Assembly (NCBI RefSeq): GCF_011806425.1
Contig: NZ_JAATOV010000004.1
Span: 248,001-312,000 of the forward strand
DNA length: 64,000 nucleotides
Reading direction: 5' to 3'
Source of the DNA: Thalassospira lucentensis
Lineage (GTDB): Bacteria > Pseudomonadota > Alphaproteobacteria > Rhodospirillales > Thalassospiraceae
Of the stretch, positions 45,242 to 63,460 are shown one piece after another (position 1 is the stretch's first letter; each line of letters begins with the position of its first letter). Both the position numbers and the translations under genes were made by a program. A model generated the notes under the pieces. The model searched no databases and had not been told where the DNA came from. It was given only the letters and a program-made list of their open reading frames with translations.

Positions 45242-45242
45242 G

Positions 45243-47681: not shown

Positions 47682-47698
47682 TTTCCCGCTCCGTATAT

Positions 47699-47714
47699 GT
47701 CTGATTTTTCAGAC
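47699..47714 (-). promoter_or_regulatory. Small hairpin in receptor leader
   Basis: GTCTGA-TTTT-TCAGAC is a perfect 6-base inverted repeat in the 119-base gap between fecR and the receptor. A sigma-factor-dependent promoter for the receptor is expected in this gap, but I could not place it. Confidence 0.35.
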
Positions 47715-47800
47715 AGGTTCCCCTGCTTCTAGAAGAACAAACGTGCGGGAAATAAGAGTCCTCACATCGCAAAGTCATTTTTTGCGAATTTTTCTCAGTC

Positions 47801-48769
47801 TCAATAAATAACAGTCAGCCACGGTAAGGTATGAACAACTGTTCCGTCGACAGCCGCCGCCACTGTTTCAACGGATCCTGAAACATCCGTTGTTGGGAAA
47901 CTTCCCGATATCGTTCGGTTGGCAACATCCCCCAAAACCACAACCCGGCTTTCAGAAAAGTTATTAAGTCGGGTGATCAGGTCATCAACCCGAACATTGC
48001 GCACACTCAAACGCCCCTGCATCCAGCTCAGTACAGGCGTTACATCACCTATATCGGTTGCTTCCAACTTTCTGGTGCTGTTGCCAATCGCGACCTGCTG
48101 CCCCGGCCCCAGAAGAACACCATCATTCATCTGTGCTGGCGATGAAACCCGAACAGCACCTTCTTGCACGGCAACGATGGTACTTCCCGAAAGGTAATCA
48201 ACGTTAAACCGCGTTCCAACCACGCGGATATTGGCATCTTTGGTATGAACATCGAATGGATCGCCATGGCGATGGGCAACATCGAAAAATGCCTGTCCGC
48301 GCAAAAGTTTGACCACGCGATGACCAGATGCAAAATCGGTCGCCAGCGCACTATTCGCCGCCAGACGCACAACTGAACCATCCGGTAAATTTACATCCGT
48401 GACTGTGGCGTTATCGGAAACGATATCAGCACGGGCGTTAACAACAATATCTGGGTTGATCACAAAAACGCCCAAGGCAATTGTCGCTGCACAAGCCAGT
48501 GCCGCAACTGTTCTTTTTGGGGTAAAGATTGCTAGGAACTTTAGCAGCCCGATCTTCGCCTGCGCTTTCGATGCCCGACGCGCCGGCGCTTCAACCTGCG
48601 CCCAGAGCACCCGCATCTGATCAAATGCCAACCGATTGCCCCGATCTGAATTCAACCACTTATCAAATGCAATTTCGTCAGCAACCGACATAGATCCACC
48701 CGCGCGCTTGGCATGCCATAGCGCGGCTTGATCTTTTTGCTGTTCCGTTGGACCGTTATGATCTTGCAT
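47801..48769 (-). CDS. fecR: FecR-family anti-sigma/sigma-regulator
   Basis: FecR is a single-pass inner-membrane protein that relays the receptor signal to the FecI-type sigma factor. The cytoplasmic N-terminal domain carries the tryptophan motif (AALWHAKRAGG and EIAFDKWLNSDRGNRLAFDQM). A membrane helix lies at about 87-107 (TVAALACAATIALGVFVINP). The periplasmic FecR domain (VNLPDGSVVRLAANSALATDF; VVGTRFNVDYL) and a C-terminal STN-like domain follow. Length, 322 residues, is normal. The order sigma-fecR-receptor on the minus strand is the classical surface-signalling layout. Confidence 0.94.
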   Translation of the reverse strand: MQDHNGPTEQQKDQAALWHAKRAGGSMSVADEIAFDKWLNSDRGNRLAFDQMRVLWAQVEAPARRASKAQAKIGLLKFLAIFTPKRTVAALACAATIALGVFVINPDIVVNARADIVSDNATVTDVNLPDGSVVRLAANSALATDFASGHRVVKLLRGQAFFDVAHRHGDPFDVHTKDANIRVVGTRFNVDYLSGSTIVAVQEGAVRVSSPAQMNDGVLLGPGQQVAIGNSTRKLEATDIGDVTPVLSWMQGRLSVRNVRVDDLITRLNNFSESRVVVLGDVANRTISGSFPTTDVSGSVETVAAAVDGTVVHTLPWLTVIY

Positions 48770-48891
48770 CGATTTCTGACTGGCTCGCTTGAATAGGGCG
48801 TTCGAAGAACGTTTGCTCTGACCGCTCAGTTACTCTCTATAATCAATAACGAATGATGGGGAAACATCCTCAGCGGCGATACGAACTTTAA

Positions 48892-49410
48892 TCAGCTTGG
48901 GTCTCGATAATCGGCAAGACGTTCCTGACAATGGCGCATTGTACGTGCAAGCTGTTTTTCCACGGCACTAACCGAAATACCGTACTTTTTCGCAAGCTTG
49001 GCGTTCGAAATGCCCTCCACACGATGCAGGATAAACATTTCCCGTGCCTTTGGCGTCAGTTCCTGCAAGGCGCGATCAAGGGCGGATAAAGTTTGTCGGG
49101 CCTGCGCATGATCTTGTGGCGACATCGTTTCACACGGCCAAAGTTGTTCGGGCAAAAGACCGTCCATGACCCGGCTGCGCCCCGCATTACTGCGATAGTG
49201 ATCCACCACCGCATTGCGGACAGACGCATAAAGCATCTTGGTATTGGCATCATCTGGCCCGCGGTCGCCCGCCTGCATCAGTCGGGCGTAAACATCTTGC
49301 ACTAGCTCAGCAGCGATTTCGCGATCACGTATGCGTCGGAACACCATCGACAAAAGTTGCCTTCGATGATCTTCGAACAGTTTGGCCAGTGTTTGCTGCC
49401 AGAACTTCAT
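48892..49410 (-). CDS. fecI: FecI-type ECF sigma factor
   Basis: This is an extracytoplasmic-function sigma factor of the iron-starvation (FecI) group. The region 2 segment ELVQDVYARLMQA precedes NTKMLYASVRNAVVDHYRS. Region 4 reads LQELTPKAREMFILHRVEGISNAKLA with the helix-turn-helix KKYGISVSAVEKQLARTMRHC. ATG at 49410 gives 173 residues; the frame extends upstream to 49515 but that stretch lacks sigma similarity and contains a cysteine-rich translation typical of leader DNA. A Fur box lies about 100 bases upstream. Confidence 0.94.
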   Translation of the reverse strand: MKFWQQTLAKLFEDHRRQLLSMVFRRIRDREIAAELVQDVYARLMQAGDRGPDDANTKMLYASVRNAVVDHYRSNAGRSRVMDGLLPEQLWPCETMSPQDHAQARQTLSALDRALQELTPKAREMFILHRVEGISNAKLAKKYGISVSAVEKQLARTMRHCQERLADYRDPS

Positions 49411-49510
49411 ACGTGATTTAAACCGATATTTATGAGGCGCTTTGCGCTGTCGCGACGCGGCGAAACCGCAAAGACACTTGTTGCATGGCTGTATCGCGCA
49501 GCAAGCTAGC

Positions 49511-49529
49511 AACAATGATAATCATTTTC
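49511..49529. promoter_or_regulatory. Fur box upstream of fecI
   Basis: AACAATGATAATCATTTTC matches the 19-base Fur consensus GATAATGATAATCATTATC at 16 positions, with a perfect ATGATAATCAT core. It lies about 100 bases upstream of the sigma-factor ATG, so iron-dependent repression is expected. Confidence 0.85.
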
Positions 49530-49635: not shown

Positions 49636-49659
49636 GCGCAGACTATCGTTAGTCTGCGC
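49636..49659 (-). terminator. Strong hairpin at IclR 3' end
   Basis: GCGCAGACTA and TAGTCTGCGC pair around a TCGT loop and overlap the last codons of the IclR gene. There is no T run, so it could protect the transcript end or act with Rho and is not a classical terminator. Confidence 0.5.
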
Positions 49660-50443
49660 CTGCGCCTGCGCCAAGACGCCGGGATATGTCCGCACATAGC
49701 GCAACCAACCGTTCGCGGCACTCCTCAACCGACACAATAGACGTTCCCGAAAGACGTTGAATGAACGGGATTGTCAGTGCCGCGACCACCTTGCCGGAAA
49801 AATCAAAAATCGGGGCCGACAGGTTCCAAACACCGGCGATGGTCAATGACGTCGCCTCGCAATAGCCCGCGTCATGAACTGCGGGCAAATCGGCGATAAA
49901 TTCCTGATAGGTTTCATCCGATACATCACCAGCCCCCTTCAGCATCGCATCACGGGCATCGGGATCCATCCACGCCGCAAGCACACGACCAGATGCCGTG
50001 TCATAGATATTGATCTGCGCGCCAAGGCGCACCGCGGTGATGTTGTTGTCCTGGCAGTCGACCTGCGCAATCACAAGAACCTTGCCCGAATGAATGATCG
50101 CAAGATGCATTGACTGGTTTACCTCGTCGGCAAGACGTTGCATTGCCTCGCCAGCGATTGATGTCAGTCGGCGAATTGGTGGATGACGATGGGCCACTTC
50201 AAACATCTTCGTAGTCAGATGATAGCGTTCGTCTTCTTCACGAAGTTCCACATAACCGCGCTGACACAACACCATCAGCATCCGGAAGATTTCTGACGTA
50301 TTGCGATTAAGCTGCTTGGCGATGGCAATCTGTGACAATCCATCTGCCTCTGAGGCAAGAAGCTCAAGAATATCAAGTCCCTTGGACAATGCCGGGGCAC
50401 GGTACTTTTCCTGATCCGTTTGGTCTTCTGCCTTGCCGCTCAT
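49649..50443 (-). CDS. IclR-family transcriptional regulator
   Basis: The N-terminal winged helix (ALSKGLDILELLASEADGLSQIAIAKQLNRNTSEIFRMLMVL) is followed by the IclR effector domain, with LADEVNQSMHLAIIHSGKVLVIAQ and LSAPIFDFSGKVVAALTI. Length is 264 residues; AGGACAT precedes the ATG. It is divergent from the solute-binding-like/CoA-transferase pair and lies at the edge of the sugar-acid operon, so it probably controls one or both. IclR regulators often respond to sugar acids or aromatic acids. The C-terminus ends in a GAGAG repeat from a short GCGCCT tandem repeat. Confidence 0.92.
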   Translation of the reverse strand: MSGKAEDQTDQEKYRAPALSKGLDILELLASEADGLSQIAIAKQLNRNTSEIFRMLMVLCQRGYVELREEDERYHLTTKMFEVAHRHPPIRRLTSIAGEAMQRLADEVNQSMHLAIIHSGKVLVIAQVDCQDNNITAVRLGAQINIYDTASGRVLAAWMDPDARDAMLKGAGDVSDETYQEFIADLPAVHDAGYCEATSLTIAGVWNLSAPIFDFSGKVVAALTIPFIQRLSGTSIVSVEECRERLVALCADISRRLGAGAGAD

Positions 50444-50622
50444 ATGTCCTCGCAGGGGGATAAATACCAGTCAATTTAAGGTCGCCGAGTATAGGCGGGC
50501 ACATACCATTGTGGCAACCAACCGCGCGCGAACTCGAGCCGCAAAATCAATATATCAAATATAAAACAGACTTTCATTTATAAATTTTCATCGGTAGACT
50601 GGCCTTGGGAGGAAACCTATCC
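50444..50622. promoter_or_regulatory. IclR/binding-protein divergent promoter region
   Basis: This is a 179-base AT-rich divergent gap with a perfect palindrome ATTTATAAAT around 50576-50585. GGGAGG just upstream of the GTG at 50623 is the ribosome binding site of the plus-strand gene. IclR probably binds here, but no consensus was verified. Confidence 0.4.
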
Positions 50623-51762
50623 GTGGCCAAACAAAAACACCTCAAAGGCATGACCTGGTCCGATCCACGCGGCTATGATCCGCTGGTTGCGGCAAGCGTG
50701 GCGTTTAGTACTGACCATCCAGACGTCGACATTACGTGGGATAAACGATCGCTTCAGGAATTTGAAAGCACCCCGGTCGAAGACCTTGCTCGCCGCTATG
50801 ACCTGATCATCATTGATCACCCGCATGTGGGTGCAATAGTTGAAAAGAACTGCTTGCTTCCACTGGATCAGTTTGCGGCCCAAGATGCCCTTACGCGACT
50901 ATCTGCCGAAACCATTGGCAAAAGCTATCAAAGCTATTTCTATCAGGGGCATCAATGGGCATTGCCGGTCGATGCGGCGTGTCAGGTACAAGCCATCCGC
51001 CCTGATCTTTTGCCCGCCCCGGTCACACAATTTGAATATGTTCTGGGCGAAGCAAAGTATGGACGTGTTGTGTGGCCATTACGCGCCCCACATATCCTGA
51101 TGTCGTTTTTCACCCTTATGGCCAATTGTGGTGCGCCCTTCCCGATCACGGCCCAAACACCCATAAATCAAAAGGCCGCGTTTGAGGTCATTGGTGCCAT
51201 GAAGGCCCTGTATGATCTGATTGATCCGACTTGCCTGGAAATGGATCCGATTGCCGCCCTTGATACGCTGTCGGAAGGCAACTGTTTCTCGTTATGTCCA
51301 TTTGTCTATCTCTACGCGCCTTATGGGCGGGCTGAATATCGCAAACACCGTGTTGCCTTTCATGACATGCCATCATTTGGTGCCTCTGGCCCATTGGGCT
51401 CGGCACTTGGCGGTACGGGACTGGCTGTTTCAGCCCACACCAGCTATCCCGACTTATGCGCGGAATTTGCCCTGTGGGTGGCATCGGCCGATATACAGCG
51501 TGGTCTGTACGCCAAACATAACGGCCAACCCGGAAACGCCGTCGCCTGGGGCGATCCATCCGTAAATCAGCCGGTTGGAAATGCGTACAACAATACCCGC
51601 ATGACCCACGAAGCTGCTTGGCTGCGTCCGCGTCACGCTGGGTACATGGGCTTTCAGGAACAGGGGTCAGAAATCCTTCTCGATACCATTAGGCGAAAAA
51701 CACATGTGGATACAGCCATCTCCACCCTTCAAAAATGTTTTGACGAAAGCTTCTCCCAATGA
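50623..51762 (+). CDS. Solute-binding-protein homologue lacking a signal peptide
   Basis: The product resembles family 1 extracellular sugar-binding proteins. It has two-lobe features such as YDLIIIDHPHVGAIVEKNCLLPLDQF, GHQWALPVDAACQVQAIRPDLL and LAVSAHTSYPDLCAEFALWVAS. It starts MAKQKHLKGMTWSDPRGYDP with no hydrophobic leader, so it should stay in the cytoplasm. GGGAGG nine bases before the GTG fixes this start, and no upstream in-frame leader exists. The stop overlaps the CoA-transferase start (ATGA). No transporter permease is adjacent on this strand. A cytoplasmic ligand-sensing or substrate-presenting role for the CoA-transferase is possible; none is established. Confidence 0.85.
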   Translation: MAKQKHLKGMTWSDPRGYDPLVAASVAFSTDHPDVDITWDKRSLQEFESTPVEDLARRYDLIIIDHPHVGAIVEKNCLLPLDQFAAQDALTRLSAETIGKSYQSYFYQGHQWALPVDAACQVQAIRPDLLPAPVTQFEYVLGEAKYGRVVWPLRAPHILMSFFTLMANCGAPFPITAQTPINQKAAFEVIGAMKALYDLIDPTCLEMDPIAALDTLSEGNCFSLCPFVYLYAPYGRAEYRKHRVAFHDMPSFGASGPLGSALGGTGLAVSAHTSYPDLCAEFALWVASADIQRGLYAKHNGQPGNAVAWGDPSVNQPVGNAYNNTRMTHEAAWLRPRHAGYMGFQEQGSEILLDTIRRKTHVDTAISTLQKCFDESFSQ

Positions 51763-52892
51763 CCGATTTATTGCCGCTTGATGGACTTAAGGTCCTCGAT
51801 TTCTCGCAGTTTCTGGCGGGTCCGTATTGCGCCTTAAAATTGGCGGACCTTGGCGCAGACGTGGTGAAGGTTGAGCGCGCCGGACTGGGGGATTTATCCC
51901 GCTACCTGTATCTGACAGACACCAAAATCGCTGGCGAAAGCACGATTTTTCACGCGATCAACCGCAACAAACGATCTGTTGCTGTCGATCTGAAATCTGA
52001 CGAAGACAAAGAAAAACTGCGCAAACTGGTCGCCGAGGCCGACGTCATTTTGCAAAACTTTCGCCCCGGAGTAATGGAACGGCTTGGTTTCGGATATGAC
52101 GCCGTCAAAAAGATCAACCCAACCGTGGTTTATGGAACAGTCACAGGCTATGGGTCGGATGGGCCGTGGGTCGATCTGCCGGGGCAGGATTTGCTCGCAC
52201 AGGCACGATCAGGGGTGATGTGGCTATCCGGTGGGCAGGATCATGGTCCTGTGGCGATGGGTCTTCCCGTTGCCGATGTGCTTGCCGGATCGGCGCTGGC
52301 CCATGGGGTATTGGCCCTTCTGTATCGCCGGGCGACCAAAAACATTGGCGGATTTGTTGAAACATCCCTGATCGAAGTTCTGGCGGATTTGCAGTTTGAA
52401 TTGCTGACCACGTGGTTTAACGACGGCAACCGCACGCCGAAAAGATCAAAAAACAATCCAGCCCACGCATATCTTGCGGCACCCTATGGCGTTTATGAAA
52501 CATCAGATGGGTATATTGCCATTGCCATGGGTAAACTGCCCCTATTGGCAGAAATTACCGGTCTTTCTGCCGACATTTCCGAACTGGACGCGTTTACCAA
52601 GCGCGACGACATCAAAGCCGGCCTTGCCGCCAAATTAAAAATCCGCACCAGCGATGACTGGATGGAACAGTTTGTCAAAAATGACATCTGGGCCGCCCCG
52701 GTCATGGATTGGGATGGTGTCGTCAAAAGTGGCGTTTTGCAAACCCTTGATATGATCCAAGATATCCATCGCGGCGATGTGGACATGAAAACCACAAAGC
52801 TACCCATGCGCATTGATGGTATCCGCCCGTCTTCGACCCGCGCGGCCCCAGAACTGGGGGATGCCAATAGTTTGCTTGATACCGGTTGGTGA
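51759..52892 (+). CDS. Class III CoA-transferase (CaiB/BaiF family)
   Basis: This enzyme transfers CoA between organic acids, or activates a carboxylic acid as a CoA thioester. The N-terminal segment LDGLKVLDFSQFLAGPYC and VVKVERAGLGDLSRY are typical. The catalytic aspartate is D144 in LPGQDLLAQA, and GFVETSLIEVLADLQ and NPAHAYLAAPYGVYETSDGY follow in the large domain. Length, 377 residues, is at the short end of the family. It is coupled to the leaderless binding protein. Its acid substrate is probably a product of the neighbouring operon. Confidence 0.92.
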   Translation: MTDLLPLDGLKVLDFSQFLAGPYCALKLADLGADVVKVERAGLGDLSRYLYLTDTKIAGESTIFHAINRNKRSVAVDLKSDEDKEKLRKLVAEADVILQNFRPGVMERLGFGYDAVKKINPTVVYGTVTGYGSDGPWVDLPGQDLLAQARSGVMWLSGGQDHGPVAMGLPVADVLAGSALAHGVLALLYRRATKNIGGFVETSLIEVLADLQFELLTTWFNDGNRTPKRSKNNPAHAYLAAPYGVYETSDGYIAIAMGKLPLLAEITGLSADISELDAFTKRDDIKAGLAAKLKIRTSDDWMEQFVKNDIWAAPVMDWDGVVKSGVLQTLDMIQDIHRGDVDMKTTKLPMRIDGIRPSSTRAAPELGDANSLLDTGW

Positions 52893-52919
52893 AACCTATT
52901 TAGACACCACCCAAAAATC

Positions 52920-52954
52920 AAAAAGCGCGACACCAATTGGGCCGCGCTTTTTTC
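52920..52954. terminator. Terminator between convergent operons
   Basis: AAAAGCGCG pairs with CGCGCTTTT around an internal CCAATTGG dyad, with T and A runs on both sides. It ends the CoA-transferase transcript and the long minus-strand operon. Confidence 0.8.
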
Positions 52955-52980
52955 GTTTCTGTATGCTCAATCGCGTTGGA

Positions 52981-53820
52981 TTAGTCGTCTTTCACGCAGA
53001 CCTGACGCTGGGTACCGAGTTTGTCGATGCCAAGTTCAACAACGTCGCCTTCCTTAAGATAACGCGGCGGATTGAAACCAAGACCAACACCCGGGGGCGT
53101 ACCCGTCGAAATGATGTCGCCCGGATGCAGGGTAAAGAACTGCGACAGATAGGAAATCAGATGCGGCACACGATAAACCATTGTTGCAGTCGATCCGTCC
53201 TGAACGCGTTCACCGTTCACATCAAGCCACATGCCGAGTTTGTCAAAATCACCAACTTCATCAGGTGTCACCAACCACGGGCCGGTCGGGCCGAAATTGT
53301 CTGATGATTTGCCTTTGGACCACTGGCCCGCACGTTCGATCTGATACGCACGTTCGGACACGTCATTAATCAGGCAGAAACCGGCAACGTGATCCATGGC
53401 GTTTTCTTCGGAAACGTATTTAGCCGTTTTGCCAATGACAAAACCAAGCTCAACTTCCCAATCGGTTTTTTCCGAACCGCGCGGAATAATGATCGGATCA
53501 TTCGGACCACAAATCGCCGATGTATATTTGGCAAAAATAACCGGCTCTGGCGGAACTTCCATACCCGATTCAGCAGCGTGGTCGGCATAGTTCAGACCAA
53601 TACAAATGAACTTCCCGGTTTGACCAACGCATGCGCCAAGACGCGGATCACCATCCACAAGCGGCAGGGTTTCCGGATCAATGGATTTCAAGCTATCAAG
53701 GCGGGTCAGGATATCCCCGGCAATATCATCAACGTGCCCTGACAAATCGCGCAATTTACCATTGGCATCAACAAGGGCCGGCTTTTCTGAACCGCGTTCG
53801 CCATAACGTGCAAATTTCAT
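52981..53820 (-). CDS. FAH-family hydrolase, probable 2,4-diketo-3-deoxy-sugar-acid hydrolase
   Basis: This is a fumarylacetoacetate-hydrolase-fold enzyme of 279 residues. IGLNYADHAAESGMEVP, the metal-binding pair in DWEVELGFVIGK, and ISTGTPPGVGLGFNPPRYLKEGD are family signatures. Homologues next to a 2-keto-3-deoxy-sugar-acid dehydrogenase cleave the 2,4-diketo acid to pyruvate plus a hydroxy acid (lactate from fuconate or rhamnonate, glycolate from pentonates). AAAGGAA precedes the ATG. It is the last gene of the minus-strand operon, 30 bases after the SDR, which supports sequential reactions. Confidence 0.9.
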   Translation of the reverse strand: MKFARYGERGSEKPALVDANGKLRDLSGHVDDIAGDILTRLDSLKSIDPETLPLVDGDPRLGACVGQTGKFICIGLNYADHAAESGMEVPPEPVIFAKYTSAICGPNDPIIIPRGSEKTDWEVELGFVIGKTAKYVSEENAMDHVAGFCLINDVSERAYQIERAGQWSKGKSSDNFGPTGPWLVTPDEVGDFDKLGMWLDVNGERVQDGSTATMVYRVPHLISYLSQFFTLHPGDIISTGTPPGVGLGFNPPRYLKEGDVVELGIDKLGTQRQVCVKDD

Positions 53821-53850: not shown

Positions 53851-54588
53851 TCAAGCGGTCCAACCGCCATCAACAACATGAACAACCCCGGTGGTAAAGC
53901 CACTCTCGTCCGATGCGAGATAGGCAACCAAAGCTGCAATTTCATCAGGTTTGCCGATCCGGCCCATTGGCTGGCGTTCGGCAAAGGCTTTAAGGGCACC
54001 TTCATAATCCCCGGTCGCACGCAGGCGGTCATGAAGGCTTGGGCTATCAACGGTGCCTGGCGCAATGGCATTGCACCGGATGCCCTGTTTGACATGATCA
54101 TTTGCAATCGCCCGCGTCATACCGGCAACGGCCGCCTTTGACGCGGAATAAACCAAACGGTTTACCGGGCCTGTGACCGGCCCTGCGACGGATGACATGT
54201 TAATAATCGAACCGTGCCCCTTTTCTAGCATCCCCGGAAGAACCGCGCGGATCATCCGAAACTGTGATTTTGCATTAAGTTCAAATGCGAAGTCCCATTC
54301 TTCTTCTGTTGCTTCAAGGATCGTTCCATTGTGAACGATGCCTGCACAGTTAAACAACACATCAACCGTGCCGATTTCATTAACCAAGGCCGTGATTGCC
54401 GATTTGTCGGTAACATCAAGCTTCTTGGCCTCAATACCGTCAATCGCATCAAGCTCAGCCAATGCGGCTTCATTAACGTCAGTCGCGATGACCCGCCCGC
54501 CTTCTTTGGCAAGTCGTTCGGCCGATGCACGTCCGATGCCTTGCCCTGCTGCTGTGACCAAACACAGTTTTCCTTCAAGTCGCTTCAT
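53851..54588 (-). CDS. SDR dehydrogenase, probable 2-keto-3-deoxy-L-fuconate type
   Basis: This is a classical short-chain dehydrogenase (245 residues) with TAAGQGIG nucleotide motif, NCAG, and catalytic YSASK. GIRCNAIAPGTVDSPSLHDRL and FAERQPMGRIGKPDEIA closely resemble the BDH2/2-keto-3-deoxy-L-fuconate dehydrogenase group, which oxidises the C4 hydroxyl of a 2-keto-3-deoxy sugar acid. With the downstream FAH hydrolase this gives a diketo-acid cleavage route. GGAGGAACT precedes the ATG. Substrate stereochemistry is not determined. Confidence 0.92.
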   Translation of the reverse strand: MKRLEGKLCLVTAAGQGIGRASAERLAKEGGRVIATDVNEAALAELDAIDGIEAKKLDVTDKSAITALVNEIGTVDVLFNCAGIVHNGTILEATEEEWDFAFELNAKSQFRMIRAVLPGMLEKGHGSIINMSSVAGPVTGPVNRLVYSASKAAVAGMTRAIANDHVKQGIRCNAIAPGTVDSPSLHDRLRATGDYEGALKAFAERQPMGRIGKPDEIAALVAYLASDESGFTTGVVHVVDGGWTA

Positions 54589-54597
54589 AGTTCCTCC

Positions 54598-55800
54598 TTA
54601 AACAGCTGGCAGGCACGACGGCCCAATGGGTTCAAATGTTTTGTAGGTCAGAATGAATTCCCGATGGCCAAGCGCCTCGGACTTGGTTTCGGCCCCCTTG
54701 GCAACAGAAACCACCAAATCGCGAATTTCCTGTCCGACTTCATCAATCGTGCGTCGGCCTTCGATGATGTCGCCAGCATTAACGTCCATATCGCCCGAAA
54801 GCGCGCGGTACGTATCGGGATTGGCGCAAATTTTAATGACGGGCGATATCGCCGATCCGACAACAGATCCGCGCCCAGTGACAAACAAGGTCAGATGCGC
54901 GCCACTGGCGATCATTTCGACAATCTCAGCATTGTCGGAAATGTTGGGGAAGCCAAACCGCACTTCGCCATCGGGCACCACATCCATCAGATAAAGCCCC
55001 CCTTTTGGCGGTACATCACCCGGTTTGATCAGCCCGGAAATACGGCTATCACCTGATTTGACATAGGCGCCCAGGCTTTTTTCCTCGATCGTGGAAAGCC
55101 CGCCTGCCGCATTGCCAGCGGCAAATGATCCATAGCCAAGCGTATCGTAATAGCGTTCCGCCTTTTGCACCGCGGCGCGCAGTTCTTCGCCCAGTTCCGG
55201 GGTGACCGCACGTTCGGCCATGATGTCTTCGCAACTGATCATTTCGCCAGTTTCTTCAAATATACAGGCAGCCCCCTCGCCGATCAGAAGATCAAAGGCC
55301 CTACCGGCGGCCGGGTTTCCCGAAATGCCCGACGTGCCGTCGGACCCACCGCAGATCGTGCCAATGACGAGCTCATGAACACCCATCGGGACACGATCAA
55401 CCTTGGCAACTTGATCAAGCGCGTTTTGAACCCAATCCCGGCCAGATTGTACCGTACTTGCCGTACCGCCCGATTTTTGGATCACCAAGGTTTCGACCGG
55501 ACGACCGGAATTTTTGACAGCGGTCGATACCCGTACCTTGTCGAAACTTTCACACCCAAGCGACACAAAAAGCACCGCCCCGACATTTGGGTGCGTGCAG
55601 AGTTGTTCCATCACGCGTGCGGCGTATTCATTGGGAAAACAGCCGGGAAAACCAATCAGTTGAACGTCTTCACCATCAAAACCGGCGACAATTTTTGACG
55701 CGACGAAATGCGCACATTCCACAAGATAAGCCACAACAACCGAGTTACGGATACCTTTGCGCCCATCAGAACGGAGGTAACCTGTGATTTCTTCTGTCAT
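54598..55800 (-). CDS. UxaA-family dehydratase, large subunit
   Basis: This is a 400-residue member of the altronate/galactarate dehydratase (UxaA) large-domain family. GYLRSDGRKGIRNSVVVAYLVECAH begins the domain, and GTICGGSDGTSGISGNPAAGRA and FEETGEMISCEDIMAERA hold conserved residues. Conserved cysteines, including in GFPGCFPNEYA, LGCESFDKV and GTICGG, could hold iron or form the active site. The family also contains (R)-sulfolactate sulfo-lyase large subunit SuyB, so sugar-acid dehydration and C-S cleavage are both possible. Its start overlaps the stop of the small subunit gene (ATGA). Confidence 0.88.
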   Translation of the reverse strand: MTEEITGYLRSDGRKGIRNSVVVAYLVECAHFVASKIVAGFDGEDVQLIGFPGCFPNEYAARVMEQLCTHPNVGAVLFVSLGCESFDKVRVSTAVKNSGRPVETLVIQKSGGTASTVQSGRDWVQNALDQVAKVDRVPMGVHELVIGTICGGSDGTSGISGNPAAGRAFDLLIGEGAACIFEETGEMISCEDIMAERAVTPELGEELRAAVQKAERYYDTLGYGSFAAGNAAGGLSTIEEKSLGAYVKSGDSRISGLIKPGDVPPKGGLYLMDVVPDGEVRFGFPNISDNAEIVEMIASGAHLTLFVTGRGSVVGSAISPVIKICANPDTYRALSGDMDVNAGDIIEGRRTIDEVGQEIRDLVVSVAKGAETKSEALGHREFILTYKTFEPIGPSCLPAV

Positions 55801-56111
55801 TTCGTTTCCCCCTGGTTAAGCCCGTTTGCGTCATCAAGCGCGTAAGTCGCCGTATAGGCCGACCGGATATTGTGAATATGAACATGTGCACCCGCTGGAA
55901 TGTCTTGGGTCGCGATCCCGATTGGCATGCCGTATTTCAAAATGCGTTCCCCCGCCGCGATATCGCGATAGGCGATCTTATGGGCAAGTGGGATTGGCTG
56001 CGTCAGGACAAAGGGACCACCTTCAAGCACCACCTTGGCACCTTCGGGTGCGGTGCTTCGCGCGACAAGGACATTGTCATTTGGATGCAAATGAAGAAAA
56101 GGTGCACTCAT
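55797..56111 (-). CDS. UxaA-family dehydratase, small (SAF-domain) subunit
   Basis: This 104-residue SAF-domain protein is the N-terminal module of UxaA-type enzymes as a separate subunit. [20 protein letters not shown] and [20 protein letters not shown] are typical, as is the [21 protein letters not shown] end, which carries histidines near the active site. A split small/large arrangement also occurs in SuyAB. Its start overlaps the MaoC stop by four bases, so translation is chained. Confidence 0.9.
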
Positions 56112-56554
56112 GGTTTCATCTCCACCATATAGATATGATCGGCAACCAGAGCGACTTCATCCTTCTGGTTTGTGACGGTCAAACGTTCTGTCACCCGGCC
56201 AAAGCCCGGACGCTTTTCCATCACTTCCTTTGCCGTAATTTCGACATCCGATTTGATCGTATCGCCAATAAAAACCGGCTTAATGAATCGTAGGCGGTCA
56301 TAGCCGTATGAAAAGGCCACCGGATTAATGACGGTGGCGGTCAAGCCAACCCCAATGGTGAACACCATCGTGCCATGGGCAATCCGCTGCCCAAATGGCA
56401 GGGTTTTGCAAAATTCCGCGTCCAGATGATGCGGAAAAAAATCGCCCGAATGTCCGGCGTGAACGACAAAATCGGTTTCAGTAATCGTACGCCCCACCGT
56501 CTGGCGATGTTCACCGATCTCGTAGTCCTCGTAATATTTGGTTTGCTCAAACAT
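56108..56554 (-). CDS. MaoC-family (hot-dog) hydratase/dehydratase
   Basis: This is a 148-residue single hot-dog protein. [21 protein letters not shown] is the usual start, and the catalytic hydratase-2 aspartate/histidine pair appears in [35 protein letters not shown] and [17 protein letters not shown] follow. Members act on enoyl-CoA or hydroxyacyl-CoA, so with the CoA-transferase gene it implies a CoA-thioester step not needed in known fucose pathways. ATG at 56554 gives a normal length; the open frame extends to 56779 through the overlapping Gfo gene. It overlaps that gene by eight bases. Confidence 0.88.
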
Positions 56555-57602
56555 CCGCTGCCTCCTTGATCGGGTGCATCGGCTTGGCGGAGCTTTGATA
56601 GGCGGCCTCAACCAACGCCATGGTGTGCCACGCGTCCTCAGCCGCCCCCTCAAGGTCGGCATCAAGACCGGCAGCAAATCTTTGCACTTGGGCAAAACGA
56701 CCGCGGAATGCGGCGATAAACCAGTTCCCGACAAGCGGCACCTGTCGCCATTCCCCATCGGTGTTGAGCCAAAGTTCATCCGGCTCGCCTTTGGGGTAAT
56801 CCAAATTCACCCCAAGTTTCAGATAAGCAGCCCCCTTGGTCCCGCAAATACGAAACTCGCAAGCCTGGAATTTGCGGCCAAATGCGTGGTTATGATTGAT
56901 CGATAAATTGCACCGAACGTCGTCGCCGTAATCAAGCATTATGGCACTGCGGGTATTCGACACCGTTGACGTGGGATGCCCGACCGTGCGCGCATGAACG
57001 CCTTTGGGATTGCCAAAAAGATCGCGAACGAAATCAAGGTAGTGGATCGAATGCAAAAGAATTTCGACCCGTGGCAGCTTCAACAAAAATTCCCAAAGAT
57101 GCCACGGCGTATCCAATGCAAGCCACGCATCAAAATCAACAAGATCACCCAAAATCCCCTGTGAAACGGCATCTTTAAGCGCAAGCGACATCGGCGCAAA
57201 ACGAAGCTGGAAATTCACTGCGGCCTTAAGCCCCTTGCGCCGGATCACCGAGATAATCCGGTCTGCCTCGGCCAAGTCGGAACCAAGCGGCTTTTGAATG
57301 ATCGCAATCGCACCATCAGGCAAAGCTTCAAGCAACTGGGCAATGGCCGTTGGCGGCACCGCAAGATCGTAAATCGTCCCGTCTTGGCCGGTTGCGTCTT
57401 CAAGCGTCTCAAACGCCTGCGTGCCCCAAGCGGTTGCAACCTTTTGCGCCTTGGCAAGATCGGGGTCATAAATCCCCGCCACCGGCACCCCCAAATCACG
57501 ATAAGCCGGAAGGTGCGCGTCCGTCACGATGGACCCCGCACCGAAAATCACAACTGGGGTTGGCGTTTCTGGCATCTCAATGGTTTGGCGCAACTCAGTC
57601 AT
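56547..57602 (-). CDS. Gfo/Idh/MocA-family oxidoreductase
   Basis: This is an NAD(P)-dependent sugar dehydrogenase family member of 351 residues. The N-terminal Rossmann fold begins [19 protein letters not shown]. The usual EKP catalytic-lysine motif reads QKP ([11 protein letters not shown]), and [14 protein letters not shown] is the substrate-side helix with conserved histidines. It may oxidise the free sugar to its lactone or act at another carbon. It is coupled at both ends (8-base overlaps with neighbours). Confidence 0.9.
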
Positions 57603-57924
57603 GGTGGAACACCTCGTTCATCTCAGCCCACCATTCGCCGTCACCGCGAGTTTCAAGCGGTCGCTGAAGCGGTTCACATACCGACCACCATCGTTGGGTT
57701 TCGGGGTCGGCAGCCATTTTCGCCATATCTGCCGCAAAATCATCGCCGACATATTCGAAATAGGCAAAAAGCAGGTTTTCCGGCTGTTTGAGGAAAATCG
57801 AATAATTGCGGATGTTGCAGTCCGATATCTTGGCCAAAACACCCGGCCATGCATCTGCGTGCAGGGTTTTGTATTGTGCAATCGCATCTTCGCCGATGCC
57901 AATCACTTGTCCATGCCTGACCAT
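57595..57924 (-). CDS. RhaM-type sugar mutarotase
   Basis: This is a 109-residue L-rhamnose mutarotase (YiiL/RhaM) family protein that interconverts anomers of a sugar. The catalytic histidine lies in TLHADAWPGVLAKI. NYSIFLKQPENLLFAYFEYVG and TQRWWSVCEPLQRP match the family core. Related proteins act on L-rhamnose or L-fucose, which supports a 6-deoxy or similar hexose as pathway substrate. The start overlaps the TAA stop of the enolase gene (TAATG). Confidence 0.9.
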   Translation of the reverse strand: MVRHGQVIGIGEDAIAQYKTLHADAWPGVLAKISDCNIRNYSIFLKQPENLLFAYFEYVGDDFAADMAKMAADPETQRWWSVCEPLQRPLETRGDGEWWAEMNEVFHHD

Positions 57925-59039
57925 TATGTGTCCTCCCTTATCTCAAACGAACTTCCCGAAACAGTCAGCGCTTTGAGTTTTTCGTGATCCCAATCAATGC
58001 CAAGTCCGGGGGTATCCGGCGCGATTGCGGTCCCCGCCTTACACGCCATCGGGGCTGCGATGTCTTCAAGTTGCGGGATATATTCAAGCCACGGTGCATT
58101 GGGCACGGCACACACCAAACTGACATGCAACTCCATCAGGAAATGCGGGCAGATTGCGATGTTATGCGCCTCCGCCAGATGGGCGACTTTTAGCCACGGC
58201 GTAATCCCGCCAACCCGCGCCACATCTGCCTGAACAATGGTGCACGCATCTGCTGCGATATAATCGGCAAACTGTCCCGGGCTATACAGGCTTTCACCCA
58301 CGGCCACAGGAACGCGCGAATGCGCCTGCAACCGCCGATGGCCTGCGATATCGTCCGATGGCAACGGTTCTTCGAACCACGCAATGTTTAGGCGTTCAAG
58401 CATCGGGACGCGCCTTTGTGCCTCGGCGGCGGTCATGGACTGATTGGCATCGGTCATGATTTCATAGTCATCGCCAAGGGCAGATCTCACCGCCTCAAGC
58501 CGTGCAACATCCCCGGAAACAGACGGCGTTCCGATTTTAACTTTTGACCCTAAAAACCCTTTGGCCTTGGCGTTTTGCGCGTCCTCGACCAACGCTTTTG
58601 GGGGTAAATGCAGCCACCCGCCTTCGGTGGTGTACATGGGAACGGTTTTCTTTGCCCCACCCGCCAACACATGAAGCGGAAGTCCCGTCTTTTGCCCGCG
58701 CATATCCCAAAGGGCGGTATCGATTGCCGCAAGCGCAAGCGACATAATCGGCCCCACGGCCGTGGCATGCGAACAAAACAAAAGATCGCGCCAGATTGCC
58801 TCAATCCGATCCGCGTCCTGCCCCATCAACCGTGGCAGCAACGTTTCGCGCAACAGCATCAAAATGGACGGGCCCCCATCGCCGATGGTGTAGCTATAGC
58901 CCATGCCGCCCGCGCCATCCGCATCGTGTAAAACAACAAAGATTGTTTCTTGCGACTTAAACGACTGGATCGCGTCGGTACGGACAACCTTGGGCGCAAG
59001 ATCGACCATAAACGCATTTGCACTGGTAATTCGTGCCAT
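57924..59039 (-). CDS. Enolase-superfamily sugar-acid dehydratase (mandelate racemase subgroup)
   Basis: This is a mandelate-racemase/muconate-lactonising-type enzyme of 371 residues. K166 and K168 (SKVKIG), the metal ligands D197 (TDANQS), E223 (FEEPL) and E249 (GESLY), and the D272/H299 dyad (CPHF) line up within two residues of mandelate racemase numbering. It should dehydrate an aldonic acid such as L-fuconate or L-rhamnonate to its 2-keto-3-deoxy acid. It is shorter than known L-fuconate dehydratases (about 430), so the substrate may differ. GTGAGG precedes the ATG at 59039; a GTG at 59051 is less likely. Confidence 0.92.
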   Translation of the reverse strand: MARITSANAFMVDLAPKVVRTDAIQSFKSQETIFVVLHDADGAGGMGYSYTIGDGGPSILMLLRETLLPRLMGQDADRIEAIWRDLLFCSHATAVGPIMSLALAAIDTALWDMRGQKTGLPLHVLAGGAKKTVPMYTTEGGWLHLPPKALVEDAQNAKAKGFLGSKVKIGTPSVSGDVARLEAVRSALGDDYEIMTDANQSMTAAEAQRRVPMLERLNIAWFEEPLPSDDIAGHRRLQAHSRVPVAVGESLYSPGQFADYIAADACTIVQADVARVGGITPWLKVAHLAEAHNIAICPHFLMELHVSLVCAVPNAPWLEYIPQLEDIAAPMACKAGTAIAPDTPGLGIDWDHEKLKALTVSGSSFEIREDT

Positions 59040-59047
59040 TTGCGGCC

Positions 59048-60133
59048 TCACTTTTTCTGGGTATCGCCAGTCTCGGCATCAAACAGATGGCATTTATCGA
59101 GCATGATCTGGAACGTCATGCGCTCGCCACGGTGTACCGGACGGGGATTAAGCATCTTGGCCTGAACTTCTGTCCCGGCCAAAACCGCAAACAACAGGGT
59201 TTCCGTGCCAAGTGGCTCTGTCAGGTCCACCGTCATTTCAACCTCGGCCATGTGCTCGCCACGTGGCAAAGCATGCCCCACCGGCATGATGTTATCGGCG
59301 CGCACCCCGAATGTAATCGCCTGCCCTTCATCGGTGAAATAGCCCGGCGGCACGGGCAAACGGGTGCCATCGGCAAATTCGATCTGACCGTCTTTGACGA
59401 CACCATCAAGCAAGTTCATCGGCGGTGACCCGATAAAGGTCGCAACAAAGGTGTTGATCGGATTTTCAAACACCTCAAGCGGCGTTCCGACTTGCTCTAT
59501 ATGGCCATCGCGCATGATGACAATCCGATCAGCAAGGGTCATGGCCTCGATCTGATCATGGGTGACATAAATGATGGTCGAGCCAAGCTTTTGATGCAGC
59601 TTTTTGATTTCAACCCGCATCTGGGTACGCAATTTCGCATCAAGGTTCGATAGCGGTTCATCGAACAAAAATACTTCCGGATCGCGCACAATCGCACGGC
59701 CCATGGCAACGCGTTGGCGTTGCCCACCCGAAAGGGCGCCGGGCTTACGATCCAAAAGGGGTGTCAGCGACAAAATATCGGCAGCTTCATTCACGGCCTT
59801 GTCGATGTCAGCCTGTGAATGTTTGGCAATATGAAGCGAAAACCCAAGGTTTTCGCGCACCGTCATATGCGGATAAAGCGCATAGTTCTGAAACACCATA
59901 GAGATGTTGCGATCACGTGGCGGCAAATCGTTGACCACGCGCCCGCCGATTTGCACGTCGCCGCCCGAAATTGCTTCGAGGCCTGCGACCATACGCAGCG
60001 TTGTCGATTTCCCGCACCCTGACGGGCCAACCAGCACGACAAACTCACCATCGGCGATATCCAGATTGATCGCATGGACGACCTCAAGCGGGCCGTATTT
60101 CTTGACCACATTGCGAAGGTGGACCTGAGCCAT
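59048..60133 (-). CDS. Sugar ABC transporter ATPase (UgpC/MsmK type)
   Basis: This is the ATPase of a CUT1-type carbohydrate importer. Walker A GPSGCGKST, signature LSGGQRQRVAMGRAI, Walker B VFLFDEPLSNLD and the switch histidine in YVTHDQIEAM are present. The C-terminal TOBE/OB domain includes FIGSPPMNLLDG. At 361 residues it matches UgpC. It sits downstream of the two permeases (5-base gap) and just before the dehydratase. Confidence 0.95.
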   Translation of the reverse strand: MAQVHLRNVVKKYGPLEVVHAINLDIADGEFVVLVGPSGCGKSTTLRMVAGLEAISGGDVQIGGRVVNDLPPRDRNISMVFQNYALYPHMTVRENLGFSLHIAKHSQADIDKAVNEAADILSLTPLLDRKPGALSGGQRQRVAMGRAIVRDPEVFLFDEPLSNLDAKLRTQMRVEIKKLHQKLGSTIIYVTHDQIEAMTLADRIVIMRDGHIEQVGTPLEVFENPINTFVATFIGSPPMNLLDGVVKDGQIEFADGTRLPVPPGYFTDEGQAITFGVRADNIMPVGHALPRGEHMAEVEMTVDLTEPLGTETLLFAVLAGTEVQAKMLNPRPVHRGERMTFQIMLDKCHLFDAETGDTQKK

Positions 60134-60137
60134 TTTA

Positions 60138-61004
60138 TTATCCTTTCACGCCGCCAAAAGTAAGGCCGGCAATGAGGTGTTTCTGCACGAGGAACGTCAA
60201 AATAAGCGCGGGGATAATCATCAACACCGCAAGCGCACACATCCCCCCCCAATTGAGGGTAAATTCAGACGTAAAATCGAGAAGCCCGACCGGCATGGTC
60301 TTTGACGTGGTGGACCGCGTGAGCTGAGACGCCAACGCATATTCATTCCACGATGTCAGAAAGGCAAAGATACCCGCCGATGCGATGCCAGACCGCGCCA
60401 CGGGAAACTCAACACGCCAAAATGCCTGCCAGCGTGTGCAGCCATCAATTTCGGCGGCTTCGGCCAGTTCAGGCGGCACCTGACGGAAGAAACCGTCGAT
60501 CAGCCAAATCGTGAACGGCACGTTTAAGGCCACATAGGCAATAATCATCCCAAAATGCGTATCGATAATCCCGACACGGGCAAACAGGATGAATAACGGC
60601 AAGGATAACGCCACCCCCGGCACAGCACGCGTCACCATCAGGCCAACAAAAATACCGCCCTTAAATTTGAATTTATAACGTGCAAAGGCATACCCACCGG
60701 CCATCCCGATCAAAATCGCAATAACGGTTGAGGTCACCGAAATCACCAATGAGTTTGCGAAATAGGTCAGGACAGGCACCCCGCCCTCGCCGATCCCGCC
60801 GAACATGGCGCGGTAATGATCGAAATTCAGCTCGTTAGGGATCCAGACTGGTGGTTTCGCCATGATTTCCACCGTCGGGCGGAAAGAGTTCAAAACGATC
60901 CATAAGCCCGGCACACACAGCACCATCATGGCAAAAAACAAGCCAAGAGAATGGGCAACTTTGAGCATCTGACGGCGAAGATTATGATTTGAATTGGTCG
61001 CCAT
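60138..61004 (-). CDS. Sugar ABC transporter permease (MalG type)
   Basis: This is a six-helix CUT1 permease of 288 residues. The EAA coupling loop reads ELAEAAEIDGCTRWQAFWRVEFP. NSFRPTVEIMAKPPVWIP near the N-terminus is the usual first periplasmic loop of MalG-like subunits. It pairs with the MalF-type permease encoded three bases upstream. Confidence 0.95.
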   Translation of the reverse strand: MATNSNHNLRRQMLKVAHSLGLFFAMMVLCVPGLWIVLNSFRPTVEIMAKPPVWIPNELNFDHYRAMFGGIGEGGVPVLTYFANSLVISVTSTVIAILIGMAGGYAFARYKFKFKGGIFVGLMVTRAVPGVALSLPLFILFARVGIIDTHFGMIIAYVALNVPFTIWLIDGFFRQVPPELAEAAEIDGCTRWQAFWRVEFPVARSGIASAGIFAFLTSWNEYALASQLTRSTTSKTMPVGLLDFTSEFTLNWGGMCALAVLMIIPALILTFLVQKHLIAGLTFGGVKG

Positions 61005-61007
61005 GCG

Positions 61008-61904
61008 TTACATCCCCATCCCGAGTTCTTGGCGAGATTTGGTCAGTTTCTTAAAGAAATAGACGGTAAAGAAAATCGCGAGGAAGATAGAGATATAGCC
61101 CATCGCATTGGCATACCCCATGCGCGCATCCACATAGCCCGTCCGCCCAATCAGCGTCCAAAGAAGCTCTGTCCGGCGTGCTGGCCCACCATTGGTCATG
61201 ATCTGAACGATGTCATAGGCACGTGCCACATCAAGCGACCGGATCGCCATCGCGATATAGATAAAGGGCATCAAAAACGGCAAGGTGACATAACGGAACG
61301 ACTGCAAAGCCGTGCAACCGTCAACCTTTGCTGCCTCAAGCGGATCACGCGGGATCGCGTACAGCCCTGCTAGAATGAGAATTCCAAACACCGATGTCGA
61401 TGTCCAAACCTCTGCAAAGATGATTGAAAACATCGCAAGGTTACCGTCAACCAACCATGGAATGGCGGTATCGGTAATGCCAAGTGACTGCAGTGCGTTG
61501 TTCACCAGTCCCACATTATCATTAAAGATAAACTTGAACTGAAAACCGACCAGGATCGGCGAAAACATCATGGGAAACATCATCATCGTGCGCAAAAGAC
61601 GCTGACCACGGGTGACCTTTGACACCATGATCGCAATGCCAAGCCCCAGCAACATTTCAAGGTTAAGCGCAACCGTCAGCAAAAGAACCGTGCGCCCAAA
61701 GGCCGCCCAAAACTTGGCATCGGTGATGGCTTTTTCGTAATTGAACAACCCGACCCAGTTAAAAATACTGTCTGGCCGCGTCAGTCGGTAGGACGTGAAA
61801 CTTGAATAAAGTGACAGAACAAGCGGGATCAGCACGACGGCCGATAAAATGATGATGGCTGGTAAAAGCAGAACCAACCACTGAGGGAGCTTCAAGCGCT
61901 TCAT
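61008..61904 (-). CDS. Sugar ABC transporter permease (MalF type)
   Basis: This is a CUT1 permease of 299 residues with six helices. The first is LVLLLPAIIILSAVVLIPLVLSLYSSF, and the EAA loop reads PLEAAKVDGCTALQSFRYVTLP. I chose ATG at 61904; the open frame runs to 62012, but that stretch lacks membrane sequence. A strong hairpin lies between the binding protein gene and this one. Confidence 0.94.
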   Translation of the reverse strand: MKRLKLPQWLVLLLPAIIILSAVVLIPLVLSLYSSFTSYRLTRPDSIFNWVGLFNYEKAITDAKFWAAFGRTVLLLTVALNLEMLLGLGIAIMVSKVTRGQRLLRTMMMFPMMFSPILVGFQFKFIFNDNVGLVNNALQSLGITDTAIPWLVDGNLAMFSIIFAEVWTSTSVFGILILAGLYAIPRDPLEAAKVDGCTALQSFRYVTLPFLMPFIYIAMAIRSLDVARAYDIVQIMTNGGPARRTELLWTLIGRTGYVDARMGYANAMGYISIFLAIFFTVYFFKKLTKSRQELGMGM

Positions 61905-62001
61905 CGGGATGTCCCATAAGTCGGCACGGATGGCTTCGTGCGTTTGGGTCTGAGGATGGTCGAAAGACGGATGGCAGATTGCAGACGGCAGATGGAAAAT
62001 T

Positions 62002-62029
62002 GGGCGGCGCACTTAACGCTGCGCCGCCC
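62002..62029 (-). terminator. Hairpin between binding-protein and permease genes
   Basis: GGGCGGCGCA pairs perfectly with TGCGCCGCCC around an 8-base loop, 13 bases after the binding-protein stop. With no T run it may stabilise the binding-protein message or attenuate downstream expression, giving excess binding protein over permease. Confidence 0.7.
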
Positions 62030-62041
62030 AACCGATCCGGC

Positions 62042-63367
62042 TTAGTAAACGCCTTCTTCTTGCATCAACTCATCAACTGCTTCGGACGCATCAGCCAGCG
62101 CCTCGTCCACGGTCTTGTCCCCAACAATCGCCGCCTGAAGTTCCGGATAAATCAAGTTGGTCGATTCAATCCAAAGGGCAGTCGGCGGAACGGCAAATGC
62201 GGTTGCCGCAGTTTCCTTAAAGGCGGCCAAAACTTCGCTGCGATACGGATCGTCTTTGGCCTGTTCGGAAACATAATCCCAAACAGCTGTGCGTGACGGC
62301 AACGGCCCGGCAGCACTTTCAAGTTTCTGGCTGTCTTCGTTGGTCAGGAACTCAACCAATGACGCCGCGGCTTCTTTGTTTTCACAATCGTCAGTGACGG
62401 AAAATCCGTGGAAACCCGACCAACCGGTGCGCACACCAGCCGATCCTTTGGGTGCGGGCGCAACGCCAACATTCCCGGCAACTTTGGACGAGGACGGATC
62501 ATTAAAGAACGCCGCCCAGCCCGGCCAATCAAGGTTAAGCGCAATCGTTCCCGAGGCAAATCCGTTGCCCAAATCGTCCCACAGATAGTTGGTTGTACCC
62601 GCCGGAACAGCTCCCGCCTTATACAAATCAACAAACCACTGCAGGGCACGTTTGCCTTCTTCGGAATCAAATGCCGGCGAAAAATCATCGTTAAACAGCT
62701 TACCGCCTTCGGCAACGACCATCTCGTAGTAACGCCCAACGATGGCTTCGTCTTTACCGGCATATTGCGTGCCATAGAAATTCGGCGGATCGGCAAAGAA
62801 AATAGCCTGATCTTTTACCTGCGCCCAGGTTTCGGGCACGGCAAGTTTATAGCCATATTCCTCTTCAAACGCCTTGGCGCGCGCCGCATCGTCATAAAGG
62901 TCTTTTTGGTAATACAGTGCCGACACATCAAACTGTGCGCGCGGCAACATGACCAGTTCGCCATCAAACGTCGCGGCTTTGATATTGGCCGGGACAAATT
63001 CGGCAACCACGTCTTTACTGATCAGGTCAGTCAGATCGGTATAAAGGCTGGAATACTGAGACGCGAAGGACGAATGGTTCGACCCAACGCACCAATCGGT
63101 TGTCCCTGCGGCGATATCGGATTTGAACTCTTTATCCAGCTCGAAATGGTTTTTCTTGGAAATAATCTCGACTTTGGCACCTGTTGCCGCTTCCCATTCA
63201 GGGATGCGCGCATAAAGAGCCTCATATTGCTGACCACCGATAAGTTTGGCTTCGATGGTGACACCATCAAATTCGCCGGCTTGTGCGTTGCCGGTTTGGG
63301 CAACAAAGGCAGTCGCCGCAAAGGCGGCAAGCACGGCGCAGGATGCACCGCTCAAATACTTGTTCAT
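62042..63367 (-). CDS. Sugar ABC transporter periplasmic binding protein
   Basis: This is a family 1 extracellular solute-binding protein of 441 residues and the first gene of the operon. A signal peptide (SGASCAVLAAFAATAFVAQTG) precedes the mature start near GEFDGVTIEAKLIGG. YLWDDLGNGFASGTIALNLDWPGW and WSGFHGFSVTDDCENKEAAASL are characteristic segments. Two cysteines may form a disulfide. GGGAGGATAAA precedes the ATG at 63367; the frame extends to 63448 without a ribosome binding site. Confidence 0.95.
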   Translation of the reverse strand: MNKYLSGASCAVLAAFAATAFVAQTGNAQAGEFDGVTIEAKLIGGQQYEALYARIPEWEAATGAKVEIISKKNHFELDKEFKSDIAAGTTDWCVGSNHSSFASQYSSLYTDLTDLISKDVVAEFVPANIKAATFDGELVMLPRAQFDVSALYYQKDLYDDAARAKAFEEEYGYKLAVPETWAQVKDQAIFFADPPNFYGTQYAGKDEAIVGRYYEMVVAEGGKLFNDDFSPAFDSEEGKRALQWFVDLYKAGAVPAGTTNYLWDDLGNGFASGTIALNLDWPGWAAFFNDPSSSKVAGNVGVAPAPKGSAGVRTGWSGFHGFSVTDDCENKEAAASLVEFLTNEDSQKLESAAGPLPSRTAVWDYVSEQAKDDPYRSEVLAAFKETAATAFAVPPTALWIESTNLIYPELQAAIVGDKTVDEALADASEAVDELMQEEGVY

Positions 63368-63460
63368 TTTATCCTCCCTAATGGATCGGCCTCTCGACCG
63401 GCTGATGATCCTGCTGTCTTTTGATGCAGCTTTCATATTCGGAATCATCTTTTATATTTA

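Follow-up and report, generated by a model that had tools for sequence, protein, structure and literature searches.

A leaderless solute-binding-fold protein encoded in overlap with a type III CoA-transferase in Thalassospira lucentensis

Gene content of the locus

The stretch of DNA analysed here (the window, 64,000 nucleotides of Thalassospira lucentensis) encodes a solute-binding-fold protein of 379 amino acids, hereafter SBPc, on the forward strand (50623..51762). The gene begins with GTG and is preceded by a Shine-Dalgarno region (GGGAGGA, 50606..50614, forward strand), with GGAGG-like sites similarly placed in relatives of the same genus. The reading frame opens just 13 codons 5' of the GTG, where it is bounded by an in-frame stop. 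These codons encode IFIGRLALGGNLS with a maximum KD of about 1.3, so a hidden leader there is impossible. The sole alternative upstream start, a TTG at 50605, would add six residues. The start without leader peptide that the initial annotation placed at this ribosome binding site and GTG is thus borne out.

The stop codon of SBPc shares the tetranucleotide ATGA (51759..51762, forward strand) with the start codon of a type III (CaiB/BaiF) CoA-transferase gene, and this overlap is kept in homologues. The transferase (51759..52892, forward strand; 377 amino acids) matches PF02515 (CoA_transf_3, E 1e-96), in agreement with the CaiB-type overlapping partner proposed at the outset, and displays an aspartate (Asp173) at the catalytic position that is invariant in the family alignment. 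Like the formyl-CoA transferase Frc, the succinyl-CoA:glutarate/HMG transferase and the benzylsuccinate CoA-transferase BbsEF, it is a full-length type III enzyme with the Asp at this position retained. It falls well short of each named NCBIfam equivalog, the best score being 194 bits where the cut-off is 700. To our knowledge, characterized type III CoA-transferases pair like folds, as homodimers or heterodimers, with no solute-binding-fold partner.

The pair is closed by an intrinsic-terminator-like hairpin with a T-run (52919..52954, forward strand). Folding of 52905-52965 gave -16.2 kcal/mol (z -2.7), and a terminator consensus scan gave no entry for the hairpin. The hairpin and T-run suggest that SBPc and the CoA-transferase are probably transcribed as a separate unit, with an IclR-family gene diverging from it and the main sugar operon converging on it.

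The divergent gene (49649..50443, reverse strand; PF01614/PF09339) encodes the probable regulator of the locus; it also adjoins SBPc in relatives of the genus and is present in most homologous loci. The sugar operon, entirely on the reverse strand, includes an FAA hydrolase (52981..53820; below the cut-off of its nearest NCBIfam model, 2,4-didehydro-3-deoxy-L-rhamnonate hydrolase), an SDR dehydrogenase (53851..54588), a UxaA-type (altronate/galactarate) dehydratase in two split subunits (54598..56111; PF20629/PF04295 and a SAF domain), a MaoC-type (enoyl-CoA hydratase-like) protein as a second CoA-thioester enzyme (56108..56560; PF01575; start inferred from homologues of like length in L011 and L026), a Gfo/Idh/MocA dehydrogenase (56547..57602), an L-rhamnose-mutarotase family protein followed by an enolase-superfamily sugar-acid dehydratase (57595..59051), and a CUT1 sugar ABC importer composed of an ATPase, two permeases and a binding protein with a leader (59048..63448). 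The locus also holds an amidohydrolase that is L-fuconolactonase-like in relatives. Elsewhere in the window, the translations at 44012-49515 (an MFS protein, a TonB receptor with N-terminal signalling domain, a FecR-like anti-sigma factor and an ECF sigma factor) point to a probable iron-uptake cluster.

All enzyme types of the non-phosphorylating L-fucose/L-rhamnose pathway are represented in the window: mutarotase, dehydrogenase, L-fuconolactonase, enolase-type dehydratase, SDR and FAH hydrolase. None of these pathway enzymes passes its NCBIfam equivalog cut-off, and the sugar is thus not fixed. Alpha-L-fucosidase genes sit in related loci which, taken with the enzyme set of the window, makes a 6-deoxyhexose such as L-fucose a likely source sugar. 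Other related loci carry different sugar-acid enzymes, one of them a mannonate dehydratase-type gene, and several sugars may therefore feed into the module. As far as we know, the non-phosphorylating pathway needs no CoA steps, whereas the window adds the CoA-transferase, the MaoC-type protein and SBPc to this enzyme set.

Fold, binding cleft and absence of a leader in the SBPc family

SBPc matches PF13416 (SBP_bac_8) with E 5e-9 and 36.7 bits, above the Pfam gathering cut-off of 27. Its AlphaFold model, built from an alignment of 89 sequences, has a mean pLDDT of 95.6 and a pTM of 0.93, and places the first strand at residues 5-12, with four residues preceding it. The nearest structures found by Foldseek in the PDB are sugar-binding ABC proteins and MBP fusions (TM 0.72-0.82, probability 1.00). 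The ABC sugar-binding fold first read from the letters alone is therefore upheld by profile, model and structure comparison.

The two-lobed fold is common to SBPc and the CUT1/cluster-D sugar-binding proteins LpqY (7ape), TMBP (1eu8), Arad_9887 (5iai) and SmoF (7ofy), with TM scores of 0.75-0.82 and identities of only 14-18%. They also have in common the Asp, Gly-Gly and hinge-Arg ligand contacts. In a sequence-profile alignment, the invariant D65, G264 and R335 of SBPc align with Asp80, Gly334 and Arg404 of LpqY, which contact trehalose, and an Arg404Ala substitution abolishes binding by LpqY (PMC7949145). SBPc has A119 where LpqY has Asn134, and the alignment leaves out the region of LpqY Glu241/Trp259. 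Since three invariant residues fall on trehalose contacts, the sugar-binding cleft of SBPc, as placed by this alignment, appears intact. Unlike these sugar-binding proteins, SBPc is leaderless, tied to no permease and paired with a CoA-transferase, and it displays extra invariant basic residues. Additional invariant residues are R16, H66, D117 and R337, and the invariant set may favour an acidic ligand.

A genome scan revealed at least 554 stretches that encode relatives of SBPc, and an even draw of Pseudomonadota contained the gene in 20 of 398 genomes (about 5%). Members occur in Alphaproteobacteria, Betaproteobacteria, other Pseudomonadota, Bacteroidota and Streptomyces, and the family is a widespread one without a name. 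One record labelled Enemella evansiae, an actinobacterium (L099:10001-11131), closely resembles Ponticoccus/Rhodobacterales loci in layout and sequence, a probable case of contamination or mislabelling.

Neither the window gene nor the homologues examined have a signal peptide or lipobox. In 101 aligned homologues, from Rhizobiales-rich, non-independent sets, just 1-13 residues separate the start from the conserved TW-x-H-P-R motif of the first strand. A leader was sought in the homologues examined, and none has one. As a control, 63 of the 64 importer binding proteins encoded in the same loci possess a hydrophobic leader segment. A second control came from the genome of the window, in which nearly all of the 27 listed PF13416 matches, a list that does not include the SBPc gene itself, show a recognisable leader; a few are over-long called ORFs, and one iron-type protein (L151) has no leader. 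The latter is a leaderless binding protein of another kind (G000:C10 near 44558-45508; L184:6559-7509, reverse strand; also L151), a 316-aa iron-type SBP_bac_8 protein that begins MTHRKLTIYSTRHREF within an open frame of 319 codons and sits in a siderophore-type ABC operon having its own leader-bearing binding protein.

These data bear on the explanation that a leader was overlooked because of a misassigned start or sequencing error, which the initial annotation had named as what an upstream leader in close relatives would indicate. We found no evidence in support of it. Stop codons lie close upstream of SBPc in many independent genomes, and the 101 homologues begin just ahead of the first-strand motif; we regard a missed leader as ruled out, its probability being negligible. 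Judging from the absence of any signal, SBPc is almost certainly a cytoplasmic protein. The observation of a leaderless solute-binding fold whose gene overlaps that of a CoA-transferase is thereby confirmed. Cytoplasmic proteins with periplasmic-binding-protein folds are known, among them the THI5/NMT1 pyrimidine synthase and the effector domains of LysR proteins. These are a precedent for the intracellular reuse of such folds, but they belong to other subfamilies and pathways and have no CoA-transferase partner.

Linkage to the CoA-transferase across genomes

The prediction that homologues stay paired with the transferase held for most of them. In 94 of 104 SBPc loci, a CoA-transferase gene adjoins SBPc or lies near it in the same orientation; it is within 150 nt in 92 of these and farther away in the other two, at 194 nt (L077) and 2.7 kb (L018). 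In the six Rhizobium loci that were re-examined (a set without L074, which is of similar type), the transferase belongs to the divergent arm of the SBPc locus. Two Hoeflea genomes have the genes on different contigs, with the transferase in a sugar locus, while Brucella gallinifaecis has a lone SBPc gene with one TAG inside along with a second, complete CoA-transferase-MaoC-SBPc set. No CoA-transferase lies within about 9 kb of the divergent member G235/L116, and another divergent one (G291) sits too close to a contig end for its neighbourhood to be read. The linkage is therefore not absolute, as G235/L116 and the Hoeflea genomes demonstrate. In the even draw of Pseudomonadota, the transferase was within 1.5 kb of 20 of the 24 SBPc genes; three genes of a divergent branch had it 6-7.5 kb off in the same cluster, together with ECH, SDR and CUT2 genes, and one displayed the Rhizobium arrangement. 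Within the genus, SBPc, the CoA-transferase and the Gfo/Idh gene have an identical distribution, occurring in 10 of 29 genomes. Chance neighbourhood in the genome of the window is ruled out by this recurrence across loci and genomes.

The order CoA-transferase-SBPc is found in most Rhizobiales, and SBPc-CoA-transferase in most members of the genus of the window, Rhodobacterales relatives and Bacteroidota. Of the 94 pairs scored, 77 retain the 4-nt overlap, whichever gene comes first (64/74 and 13/20); these figures come mostly from Rhizobiales and lack phylogenetic independence. For comparison, the importer permease genes of these loci overlap in 49% of cases and other neighbouring pairs mostly in 0-22%, so the overlap of the SBPc pair exceeds chance; the two permeases of such importers form an obligate heterodimer. 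Genome searches for a Rosetta-stone fusion of SBPc and CoA-transferase returned none, and in the open full-text literature (subscription papers being outside its scope) no paper on the pair was found.

Two further observations concern the transferases. Some Rhizobium loci (L122:7671-8798 and L123:6708-7835) encode a second CoA-transferase, 55-56% identical to that of the window, which adjoins an enolase-superfamily gene and has no SBPc gene beside it. In Sinorhizobium meliloti 1021 (L013:6851-7983), unlike strain ml21, the partner matches in two frames, which may reflect a frameshift or a sequencing difference.

In Rufibacter and Persicobacter the gene order is SBPc-CoA-transferase-CoA-transferase-SBP2-Gfo/Idh, where SBP2 is a separate branch of solute-binding proteins (15-16% identity to SBPc) that is likewise leaderless. 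SBP2 also occurs in the erythrobacter Croceibacterium and the haloarchaeon Halostagnicola, near genes for CoA-transferase, MaoC, Gfo/Idh and alpha-L-fucosidase. SBP2 genes lie at L016:9661-10788, L017:9451-10683, L110:7992-9179 and L111:7992-9227. The annotated start of the L016 gene is internal, and its reading frame continues upstream.

The remaining content of the loci is less constant. A hydratase of MaoC or crotonase/ECH type recurs with the CoA-transferase and is present in most loci with full flanks. Meanwhile, the transporter class differs (CUT1 ABC, CUT2/Rbs ABC, RhaT symporter, TRAP, MFS), as does the regulator class (IclR, LacI, GntR, MarR, FCD). This variation is relevant to whether SBPc could be an importer component after all, either exported non-classically or acting as an inside partner of an ABC transporter, as its fold and the sugar ABC importers of many loci might suggest. 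Relatives that lie next to permeases and are secreted had been foreseen as evidence against a cytoplasmic pair. Permeases do often lie in these loci, but the ABC importers there carry their own secreted binding protein, and the stretches read from Bacteroidota contain no ABC permease, with RhaT or TonB/SusD genes instead. Together with the varying transporters, this argues against any importer role, which we exclude as highly improbable.

Possible role of SBPc in CoA-dependent sugar-acid catabolism

Based on these findings, we postulate, with a probability of roughly 0.5, that SBPc binds sugar acids in the cytoplasm as a subunit of, or carrier for, the CoA-transferase, within a locus for the catabolism of a deoxyhexose-type sugar; both the complex and its ligand are what we infer from the genes. 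The cytoplasmic pair suggested by the initial annotation draws support from the leaderless homologues and the retained pairing. Being leaderless, with its pocket kept, and co-inherited with a transferase that retains its catalytic residue, SBPc is most economically read as a substrate-holding partner. It would derive from the binding protein of a sugar importer, now retained in the cytoplasm, and would act together with the co-translated type III CoA-transferase. Its canonical cleft would probably close on a sugar acid (or lactone) originating from a 6-deoxyhexose-type sugar and present it to the transferase, which may form a sugar-acyl-CoA through the catalytic Asp173. The MaoC- or crotonase-type hydratase of the same locus would act next. 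The lack of any fusion, the unlinked genes of G235/L116 and Hoeflea and the second Rhizobium transferase without SBPc count against such a partner.

We rank a substrate-holding partner ahead of two other roles. The first, that SBPc is itself a cytoplasmic enzyme (an isomerase, lactonase or dehydratase on this fold) merely co-transcribed with the transferase, seems rather unlikely. More than 35 columns, charged and hydroxyl residues included, are invariant even where sequence identity falls to about 30%, as an enzyme might display, and G235 keeps its linkage to sugar-acid enzymes with no CoA-transferase near. However, the overlap with the transferase far exceeds that of most other gene pairs of the locus, and the canonical ligand-contact residues are retained, as expected of a binder. 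The second, a cytoplasmic sugar sensor or buffer that signals, for instance, to IclR or sequesters an intermediate, we consider improbable: an IclR gene does adjoin SBPc in many loci, but the regulator class varies while the CoA-transferase is constant, and IclR proteins normally bind their effectors by themselves.

A bolder version of the substrate-holding partner is conceivable, and we offer it tentatively. The type III CoA-transferase might be a two-component enzyme in which SBPc is an obligate cytoplasmic subunit that delivers the substrate. It would serve a CoA-thioester route for sugar acids for which two lineages of solute-binding proteins were recruited. The order SBPc-CoA-transferase-CoA-transferase-SBP2 of Bacteroidota would then put one such protein beside each transferase.

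Public records call members of this family "extracellular solute-binding protein" or "ABC transporter substrate-binding protein", and hundreds of genomes, those of rhizobia among them, thus likely carry a wrong location and function for these proteins. If SBPc and the CoA-transferase do form a complex, parts of an importer would have been turned into enzyme subunits, and the pair would indicate that the catabolism of deoxysugars includes a CoA-dependent step not described so far.
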